Translations under genes and position numbers: made by a program | The notes under the pieces: generated by a model | Database searches by the model: none | Told to the model about the DNA's origin: nothing | The model's input: only the letters and a program-made list of their open reading frames with translations | DNA from: Candidatus Komeilibacteria bacterium S5_K13 | GTDB lineage: Bacteria; Patescibacteriota; Patescibacteriia; UBA1558; S5-K13 | Assembly (NCBI GenBank): GCA_019248485.1 | Contig: JAEHGL010000011.1 | Span: 1 to 36,559 of the forward strand | Length of the DNA stretch: 36,559 nucleotides | Reading direction: 5' to 3' | Part shown: positions 7,687 to 25,753 of the stretch, piece after piece | Position numbering within the stretch: position 1 is the first letter of the stretch | Layout: the number at the start of each line of letters is the position of its first letter

Positions 7687-7716
7687 TCCGCCAGAGGCGG
7701 ATCAGCCTTAGGCTGA
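7687..7716 (+). repeat. 30-bp double-hairpin element, family A (intergenic copy)
   Basis: TCCGCCAGAGGCGGA followed by TCAGCCTTAGGCTGA: two adjacent short hairpins. The same 30-bp unit occurs at 17036-17065 and 17387-17416 on the other strand, inside tRNA-Pro fragments. All three copies directly follow AGTT when read in element orientation. The surrounding 7586-7859 is otherwise a gene-free, TTAG-rich spacer. Confidence 0.8.
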
Positions 7717-16892: not shown

Positions 16893-16969
16893 TGGTCGGG
16901 GTGACAGGATTCGAACCTGCGACCTCATGCTCCCAAAGCACGCGCGCTAGCCAACTGCGCCACACCCCG
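16893..16969 (-). tRNA. tRNA-Pro(TGG)
   Basis: 77 nt with encoded CCA (minus strand). Acceptor CGGGGTG pairs with CACCCCG. The anticodon loop TTTGGGA inside the stem CGTGC/GCATG reads UGG. T-loop GGTTCGAATCC is standard. Two truncated copies of its 5' end lie upstream at 17031-17082 and 17382-17433. A terminator follows at 16754-16786. Confidence 0.95.
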
Positions 16970-17030
16970 TTTATGTTATGTTATCACTATATGTGTTTTA
17001 AATAAACATTTTACGGAAAGTGTGCTTTTA

Positions 17031-17082
17031 TAGCCCCAGCCAGAGGCTGGTCCGCCTTTGGCGGAAACTGCGCCACACCCCG
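17031..17082 (-). pseudogene. tRNA-Pro 5' fragment split by a 30-bp family A palindrome
   Basis: Minus strand: 17 nt identical to the tRNA-Pro 5' end (CGGGGTGTGGCGCAGTT, 17082-17066), then the 30-bp element (17065-17036), then GGCTA (17035-17031), which is exactly the next five bases of the tRNA. The tRNA homology stops after that. So the element lies in the D-loop between AGTT and GGCTA without loss of tRNA bases. Confidence 0.85.
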
Positions 17083-17086
17083 TAAA

Positions 17087-17344
17087 TTATTTTTTTAATA
17101 GTTCATCTAAAAATTTTCTTCCTTGACCAGACTTTAGAAATTTCTCTCTTTTTATTGCTTCAGATTTAGTATAATATTTTTCAGAATAAATCATAGTAAA
17201 TGGTCCATTTTGTTTTGTCCATTTATTACATCCAGAGTTATGTTCTTTTAGTCTTAAAAAAGTAGCTTTTCCAGTATGTCCTATATATCTTTTGTTATTT
17301 TTAAGACTTTTTAATACATATACATAATATAAATCACTTTTCAT
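17087..17344 (-). CDS. GIY-YIG nuclease domain protein
   Basis: 85 residues, a minimal GIY-YIG domain. YYVYVLKSLKNNKRYIGHTG carries the GIY-like (YVY) and YIG motifs. LRLKEHNSG holds the catalytic Arg, and SEAIKREKFLKSGQGRKFLD the conserved Glu and the C-terminal basic motif. It belongs to the COG2827/YhbQ-like group, which is common in candidate-phyla genomes. It is bracketed by two tRNA-Pro 5' fragments that each carry a family A palindrome (17031-17082, 17382-17433), 4 bp and 37 bp away. That arrangement suggests a mobile or homing unit, but no activity is known. Confidence 0.88.
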   Translation of the reverse strand: MKSDLYYVYVLKSLKNNKRYIGHTGKATFLRLKEHNSGCNKWTKQNGPFTMIYSEKYYTKSEAIKREKFLKSGQGRKFLDELLKK

Positions 17345-17381
17345 TTGTTTATATTATAGATTTTAATGCAAGCGTTATTTT

Positions 17382-17433
17382 TAGCCTCAGCCAGAGGCTG
17401 ATCCGCCTTTGGCGGAAACTGCGCCACCCCCCG
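17382..17433 (-). pseudogene. Second tRNA-Pro 5' fragment split by a family A palindrome
   Basis: Minus strand: 17 nt of the tRNA-Pro 5' end with one mismatch (17433-17417), the 30-bp element (17416-17387), then GGCTA (17386-17382). The architecture is identical to the copy at 17031-17082, on the other side of the GIY-YIG gene. The element differs from that copy at two positions (TCAG versus CCAG, and CTGA versus CTGG), which keep the hairpin paired. Confidence 0.85.
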
Positions 17434-17451
17434 AATTTAATTTTGAATTAT

Positions 17452-17508
17452 GAATGATGAATTTTGAATAAATTAGTAATTAATTAATTCAAAATTTATT
17501 CATCATTC
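17452..17508. repeat. AT-rich near-palindrome of the spacer family
   Basis: A 23-nt arm at 17452-17474 (GAATGATGAATTTTGAATAA...) is nearly repeated in inverted form at 17486-17508. The same words (GAATGATG, GAATTATGAATTTTG) recur near 22860, 31410, 31460, 31510 and 31640, always next to tRNA genes or tRNA-derived sequence. Confidence 0.6.
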
Positions 17509-17534
17509 TAAACTCATCATTCGAAATTGTATAT

Positions 17535-25278: not shown

Positions 25279-25336
25279 TGGTACCGGGAAGAGGACTTCC
25301 CGTCATACGACGGGATAAACTTCTCGTCCTCTTTTC
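25279..25336 (-). pseudogene. tRNA-Leu(TAG) 3' fragment carrying a family B hairpin
   Basis: 25279-25297 is a 19-nt exact copy of the tRNA-Leu 3' end including CCA (25395-25413). Upstream of it on the minus strand is TCCCGTC-GTAT-GACGGGA (25315-25298), the family B hairpin, where the tRNA would have its T-arm. GTCCTCTT (from 25329) pairs with AAGAGGAC of the fragment, so the whole forms a longer hairpin. Confidence 0.8.
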
Positions 25337-25527: not shown

Positions 25528-25621
25528 GTGTCTACCAATTCTCCGCCTCGGCTCGCTAGGCTCGCCGACGCCCGCTTCGCCATAGCGATAGCGAGGCGAG
25601 CGAGACAGGCACCATCCCGGC
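25528..25621 (-). pseudogene. tRNA-Leu 5' fragment split by a 68-bp palindrome (copy 1)
   Basis: Minus strand: GCCGGGATGGTG (25621-25610) is the tRNA 5' end. Then comes a GC-rich palindromic insert of 68 bp (25609-25542), then GAATTGGTAGACAC (25541-25528). Removing the insert restores the tRNA 5' 26 nt exactly. The 46-nt AT-rich spacer on each side is identical to that upstream of the intact tRNA. The start-to-start distance from the intact tRNA is 73 bp. Confidence 0.9.
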
Positions 25622-25668
25622 ATAATATATTTTTTCTTTTCAATTTTGCAATTTTCAATTAGATATTT

Positions 25669-25753
25669 GTGTCTACCAATTCTCCGCCTCGGCTCGCCGA
25701 CGCCCGCTTCGCCATAGCGATAGCGAGGCGAGCGAGACAGGCACCATCCCGGC
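25669..25753 (-). pseudogene. tRNA-Leu 5' fragment split by a 59-bp palindrome (copy 2)
   Basis: Same design as copy 1: tRNA 5' end (25753-25742), a 59-bp version of the palindrome (25741-25683), then GAATTGGTAGACAC (25682-25669). The insert lacks 9 bp (CTAGGCTCG on the plus strand) found in copy 1. Distance from copy 1 is 141 bp, that is 73 plus the 68-bp insert. Apart from these copies and the intact tRNA's leader, 25481-25901 holds no gene. Confidence 0.9.

Follow-up and report, generated by a model that had tools for sequence, protein, structure and literature searches.

Putative GIY-YIG homing elements within bacterial tRNA genes leave a stump on one side and a rebuilt tRNA on the other

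While tRNA genes are classic landing sites for mobile DNA, they usually receive large integrase-borne islands, and the finding of a gene for a tiny predicted DNA-cutting enzyme inside a tRNA gene of the uncultured Candidatus Komeilibacteria bacterium S5_K13 raises the question how such a gene came to lie there and how an intact tRNA was nevertheless retained. The window, i.e., the whole stretch of 36,559 nucleotides analysed here (GCA_019248485.1, JAEHGL010000011.1), is contig 13 of a 1.06-Mb draft genome, in the following called G000. A first-pass annotation, made from the sequence alone, described two 22-nt 5' fragments of tRNA-Pro (17+5 nt), each holding a 30-bp palindromic element at AGTT^GGCTA, which bracket an 85-residue GIY-YIG nuclease gene followed by the intact tRNA-Pro on the same strand, and it suggested a unit that enters a tRNA gene and leaves a restored tRNA beside it. 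Here, we report that this description is exact. The suggested interpretation is supported by an empty site in a relative and by a strong statistical linkage in other genomes, although cleavage of the tRNA gene by the nuclease is inferred only.

The tRNA-Pro locus and its empty counterpart

On the minus strand the genes for tRNA-Ile, tRNA-Phe and tRNA-Pro follow the 16S rRNA gene, and the 565 bp between tRNA-Phe and tRNA-Pro contain most of the features of interest. In the window the relevant features, all on the minus strand, are as follows:
17434-17534 (-), original upstream flank of tRNA-Pro, between tRNA-Phe and the outer stump
16953-17416 (-), whole insertion of 464 bp between nt 17 (17417) and nt 18 (16952) of the original tRNA-Pro gene, read as two stacked units of 351 and 113 bp
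17417-17433 (-), outer stump, original tRNA-Pro nt 1-17, one change from the intact gene: CGGGGGGTGGCGCAGTT
17387-17416 (-), double palindrome (family A) of 30 bp at D-loop position 17/18, left end of unit 1
17382-17386 (-), tRNA-Pro nt 18-22 (GGCTA) copied into unit 1
17087-17344 (-), 85-aa GIY-YIG nuclease gene (UPF0213/Slx1-like single domain)
17066-17082 (-), inner stump, copy of tRNA-Pro nt 1-17 identical to the gene, right end of unit 1
17036-17065 (-), double palindrome (family A) at D-loop position 17/18, left end of unit 2
16970-17035 (-), remainder of unit 2, GGCTA (17031-17035) plus 61-bp spacer without ORF (nuclease gene absent, inferred lost)
16893-16969 (-), intact tRNA-Pro(tgg), in which nt 1-17 (16953-16969) is the right end of unit 2 and nt 18-77 is the original gene
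25530-25753 (-), two tandem 5' stumps of tRNA-Leu(tag) (nt 1-12, palindromic insert of about 60-70 bp at 12/13, nt 13-26), no nuclease gene
25279-25315 (-), 3' stump of tRNA-Leu(tag) (nt 68-86) with palindrome TCCCGTCGTATGACGGGA at the T-loop

The two palindromes at tRNA-Pro differ at 2 of 30 bases, and the TCCGCCNNNGGCGGA half gives 4 matches in the window against 0.06 expected in shuffles. A search of the window against Rfam returned only tRNA and rRNA matches and no intron match at the gathering threshold, arguing against a group I/II intron, and the 464-bp insert contains a single ORF, the GIY-YIG gene, and no tyrosine recombinase gene, so that an integrase-type tRNA island was rejected as well.

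To find out which of the copies of nt 1-17 is the original one, tRNA-Pro loci of relatives were compared. In G002, a genome of the same family, the spacer between tRNA-Phe and tRNA-Pro is 96 bp long and runs straight into an intact tRNA-Pro. The same spacer is found in the window (86 identical columns in the alignment; score 69, largest of 500 shuffles 30), where it runs into the outer stump. Hence, nt 1-17 of the outer stump are the original 5' end of the gene in place, 464 bp were inserted after nt 17, and the insert ends with a new nt 1-17 that completes the old nt 18-77. Occupied and empty alleles of one locus are thereby found, although this argument rests on one clear locus and one close relative; the corresponding gaps of 27, 6 and 83 bp in three further genomes (G006, G011 and G014) agree with it. 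The restored end, which is only 17 nt long, equals the sequence of the relative. In G009 a stump with two palindromes and no gene is present. The first-pass interpretation is refined in that the inner stump is best read as an earlier restored tRNA end that was itself entered at the same site.

The clearest unit is found at tRNA-Ser(gga) of G003 (locus L179, 501-1240), in which two identical 323-bp repeats of palindrome, GTGGCT (nt 15-20), GIY-YIG gene and tRNA nt 1-14 are stacked at position 14/15 before the intact remainder of the gene, which looks like recent stacking or like an amplification similar to that caused by phage SegB. The window has the same design, with units of 351 bp (with gene) and 113 bp (without). 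The layout of stump, gene, stump and tRNA seen in the window recurs at tRNA-Pro(ggg) of G007, which belongs to another family (L177/L271), and at tRNA-Ser(gct) of G001 (L085). Moreover, a mirror-image form exists, consisting of intact tRNA, nuclease gene and 3' stump (L175/L116), as in tRNA-Pro(cgg) of G015, whose dead 3' copy has palindromes in both D-loop and T-loop. At tRNA-Arg(tcg) (L056:9554-9630) both flanks hold dead copies with the same long palindromic insert in the anticodon loop, and the upstream one is followed by a GIY-YIG gene. In L158, L179 and L197 the GIY-YIG reading frames run into the tRNA gene and stop on a TAG codon inside it, so that the last few residues are encoded by the tRNA 5' end.

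Such arrangements might alternatively arise by segmental amplification without homing, in which the nuclease would cut tRNA genes in its own genome and faulty repair would create local tandem duplications of leader plus tRNA 5' end, the extra copies decaying and collecting palindromes, while the gene is kept next to tRNAs because that is where it cuts. This is in line with the tandem stumps (Leu in the window, Asn in L113, Arg(tct) in L061), with the identical tandem units in L179, with the tandem amplification of a tRNA segment driven by the GIY-YIG enzyme SegB of phage T6, which cuts inside tRNA genes (PMC13096335), and with at least two cases (Lys in G000, Pro(ggg) in G015) in which about 20 nt of the tRNA leader is duplicated too. 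However, it does not explain why the outer stump lies at the ancestral flank with the gene always between stump and intact tRNA in the same orientation, nor the occurrence of the same isotype in unrelated families. We therefore consider amplification alone unlikely, although repair-driven duplication may also take part.

Recurrence of small GIY-YIG genes and stumps at tRNA genes

In G000, 5 of 8 GIY-YIG hits lie within 300 bp of a tRNA gene and a sixth, in a 283-aa frame, at 332 bp. Reading the flanks of 35 tRNA genes of this genome revealed stumps at Pro, Leu, Glu, Lys, Arg, Ser, Asp, Val, Ile and others, with several palindrome families at recurring tRNA positions (8/9, 12/13, 17/18, anticodon loop, T-loop). 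Automated counting gave 14 of 35 tRNAs with a fragment of their own sequence within 400 bp, while the per-side control rate for other tRNAs is 1.2%. A recurring palindromic tail (ttcgactcatcccgc..gcgggattcgctcatggtcttcgacc and ctcgattcgttctcatt..) follows many tRNA 3' ends in G000, downstream of the CCA ends in L054, L055, L060 and L073, and possibly represents decayed 3' stumps.

The absence of a statistical link between GIY-YIG genes and tRNA fragments or palindromes in other genomes had been named beforehand as a result that would refute the interpretation, and the outcome was strongly in favor of the link. In 17 genomes of the order, 48 of 85 small GIY-YIG genes lie within 300 bp of a tRNA gene, against an upper-bound expectation of 3.1 (P=4e-46), while this is true for 0 of 19 large ones (UvrC-size frames and others; P=3e-6). 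All 49 small genes within 400 bp are on the strand of the tRNA, 31 upstream and 18 downstream. The far side of the gene holds a fragment of that same tRNA in 24 of 49 cases, against 1.3% for other tRNAs; chance is rejected by shuffles and non-cognate tRNA controls. About half of the tRNA-adjacent genes, however, lack a detectable stump. In an independent set of 29 relatives of the window protein from 145 genomes of the phylum, 21 lie within 400 bp of a tRNA, all 21 on its strand and 13 with far-side stumps. A search with the window protein found relatives in named genomes at 37-70% identity in several Patescibacteria, including Yanofsky-, Nealson- and Nomurabacteria, in Omnitrophota and in Bacteroidota, most of them beside a tRNA with palindrome-bearing stumps, including the isolate Muriicola marianensis (L243) and Maribacter (L248). 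A scan of viral contigs returned one weak hit of 34% identity (IMG/VR 3300037400_003551, L253) with no tRNA on the contig.

A spliced alignment over 229 tRNAs gave 93 partial copies. Of 80 inserts with at least 60% predicted pairing, 23 lie in the D-loop, 16 in the 5' D-stem (mostly 12/13), 9 in the anticodon loop and 8 in the T-loop, with a false rate of 4% at the threshold used, so that individual weak rows should not be relied on. A natural experiment is provided by G010, a one-contig genome of the same order that has no small GIY-YIG gene and only a hit in a 578-aa frame: none of its 40 tRNAs has a stump, compared to 23 of 82 in G000 plus G014 (P=4e-5), and it has few palindromes (0.03 per kb against 0.24 and 0.18). 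As this is one genome, it represents support rather than proof.

These data also bear on the possibility that the palindromes are independent miniature elements, similar to Rickettsia palindromic elements, that land in already dead tRNA copies, with the GIY-YIG gene being a separate passenger of tRNA loci. Family A palindromes also lie in plain intergenic DNA, usually after TT, e.g., at 7687-7716 of the window and at many sites of G000 (23 exact copies, 27 allowing one mismatch, most not in tRNA stumps), and these may be independent miniature elements; furthermore, the palindrome sequence differs among genomes and several families share the same loops. However, the palindrome position is conserved within nuclease clades across families with different palindrome sequences (Pro 17/18 in G000, G007, G015, G131 and G092; Asn 12/13 in L233 and L234; Bacteroidota Ser 21/22 in three genomes), and G010 lacks small GIY-YIG genes, stumps and nearly all palindromes together. 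This explanation appears doubtful to us.

The nuclease lineage and its predicted fold

The window protein matches the Pfam GIY-YIG domain PF01541 (E=1.8e-15; 57.5 bits against a curated cut-off of 22.6), and profile searches gave UPF0213 (1zg2, E=2.8e-17), Slx1 and then I-TevI as the closest solved structures, while a search against NCBIfam gave no named family. The AlphaFold model (pLDDT 95.5) matches UPF0213 and Slx1 best. Residues Y9, Y20, G22, H35 and E67 are invariant in 18 tRNA-linked relatives and R31 is kept in at least 90%, i.e., the catalytic Tyr, Tyr, Arg and Glu are retained. The protein ends after the catalytic domain and has no separate DNA-binding domain, unlike I-TevI, which counts against a homing enzyme in so far as the means by which it would pick one tRNA isotype is not apparent.

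In a tree of 82 small GIY-YIG proteins the tRNA isotypes cluster (36 changes against 46.7 in shuffles, 0 of 200 as low), so that protein lineages are tied to one insertion site across hosts. The three Pro-linked proteins from two families form one clade (99/88), and Glu, Trp, Lys, Tyr and Ser/Leu groups also appear. As a second refinement of the first-pass interpretation, a separate COG2827-like clade of 20 proteins ('..NPxWxDLY') was considered part of the system but dropped, as 19 of 20 are not near tRNAs. Pairs with unsaturated dS give dN/dS of 0.03-0.25, showing purifying selection.

The kinship with Slx1 suggests that the nuclease might be structure-specific and act on hairpins or cruciforms extruded by tRNA genes and palindromes, the hairpin-bearing stumps being its products or its preferred substrate. 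The closest relatives by sequence and fold and the position of inserts in the loops of the three tRNA arms fit this view, but a purely structure-specific enzyme would not need isotype-specific clades, and this reading, for which cruciform data are lacking, is unlikely. Even less probable is an RNA-level device in which the protein cuts one tRNA isotype and the stump RNA is a decoy or leader that controls it. While isotype matching and strict co-orientation with the tRNA would be in agreement, many stumps are 22-30 nt 5' pieces that cannot fold as tRNA, the mirror-form stumps lie downstream, the empty site shows DNA insertion, and nuclease relatives act on DNA.

A proposed tRNA-specialised homing element and its closest known counterparts

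Our preferred explanation, to which we assign a probability of roughly 0.74, is that the locus holds two stacked copies of a small, self-contained homing element specialised for tRNA-Pro genes. In this view a unit consists of a hairpin-forming palindrome pair, a few tRNA bases, a GIY-YIG endonuclease gene and a short leader, and it ends with a copy of tRNA nt 1-17. It inserts after nt 17 in the D-loop, the old 5' end is left behind as a dead stump capped by the palindrome, and the unit's own nt 1-17 joins the old nt 18-77 to rebuild a working tRNA. The likely drive would be homing: the nuclease would cut tRNA-Pro genes lacking the element, and repair from a copy that has it would insert the unit, while an occupied gene would no longer be cut because the left half of the site is followed by a palindrome and the right half is preceded by a new leader. 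A second unit would have entered the restored tRNA at the same site and later lost its gene, and sister elements, each matched to its own tRNA isotype, would use other loops and the mirror-image form. The sequences themselves show the insertion at 17/18, the restored tRNA, the isotype matching, the selection on the protein and the wide recurrence at most kinds of tRNA gene, whereas cutting, homing, the immunity of occupied sites and the function of the palindromes are inferred, the role of the nuclease from linkage, isotype matching, selection and the action of SegB. Many stumps, such as those of Leu in the window, have no nuclease gene today, so that the gene is not needed to keep a stump and its loss is assumed. 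Moreover, some stumps carry palindromes in two or three loops, so that a palindrome is not simply one end of one insertion; on present evidence it may block re-cutting of the stump, may be captured at breaks, or may be a hairpin end.

A more far-reaching view, which remains tentative, is that these loci represent a widespread, previously undescribed class of minimal mobile elements of about 350 bp in which a single-domain GIY-YIG nuclease and hairpin palindromes work as one system, each lineage being matched to one tRNA isotype and one tRNA loop, inserting there, carrying the replacement tRNA end, and having spread across Patescibacteria and Bacteroidota. The palindrome would then be a functional element end, for example a cruciform handled by the Slx1-like nuclease. 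If confirmed, units of about 350 bp with one 85-aa protein, which appear to enter tRNA genes in the D-, anticodon- or T-loop and to rebuild the tRNA repeatedly and across phyla, would be among the smallest self-mobile protein-coding elements, would give cells a counterpart of phage SegB and of fungal mORFs, would explain tRNA fragments and hairpin repeats around tRNA genes in reduced Patescibacteria genomes, and would supply a family of small nucleases with tRNA-gene specificity. Free-standing homing endonucleases and gene-end replacement are both known, and it is their combination at tRNA genes for which no description was found in the open-access literature searched, so that its novelty is provisional.

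Rickettsia palindromic elements and other bacterial MITEs are likewise short palindromes inserted in genes, and a nuclease partner or a restored tRNA is not known for them. In CPR bacteria, the same bacterial radiation, LAGLIDADG insertion sequences were described in another type of structural RNA gene, but they lie inside rRNA genes, largely as introns, and in that study, which does not mention tRNA, the few GIY-YIG cases were judged to be outside homing (PMC11270868). UPF0213/COG2827 and prokaryotic Slx1-like GIY-YIG proteins share fold and domain with the window protein, but no tRNA-gene linkage was found reported for them (PMC1564403), and the COG2827-like clade found here is itself not tRNA-linked. 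SegB, a free-standing GIY-YIG homing endonuclease of T4/T6 phages, is encoded next to tRNA genes, was shown to cut inside tRNA genes, where its motif RAWTSGAAC is the reverse complement of the T-arm GTTCSAWTY, and causes tandem amplification of a tRNA segment (PMC13096335). It belongs to phages instead of a cell chromosome, no tRNA stumps, palindromes, restored tRNA ends or isotype-matched clades were found described for it, and the proteins reported here are single-domain and closer to UPF0213/Slx1. The closest match in logic is given by the mobile endonuclease ORFs (mORFs) of fungal mitochondria, e.g., in atp6 of Allomyces and in atp6, atp9, cox2 and nad3 of Glomus (PMC3630166). These concern protein-coding genes and 3' ends, are mostly LAGLIDADG and have no link to tRNA genes; palindromes (double-hairpin elements) occur in the same fungi. 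As at the tRNA-Pro locus, an endonuclease gene is inserted in an essential gene and carries a replacement gene end, while the native end is left behind as a displaced copy.
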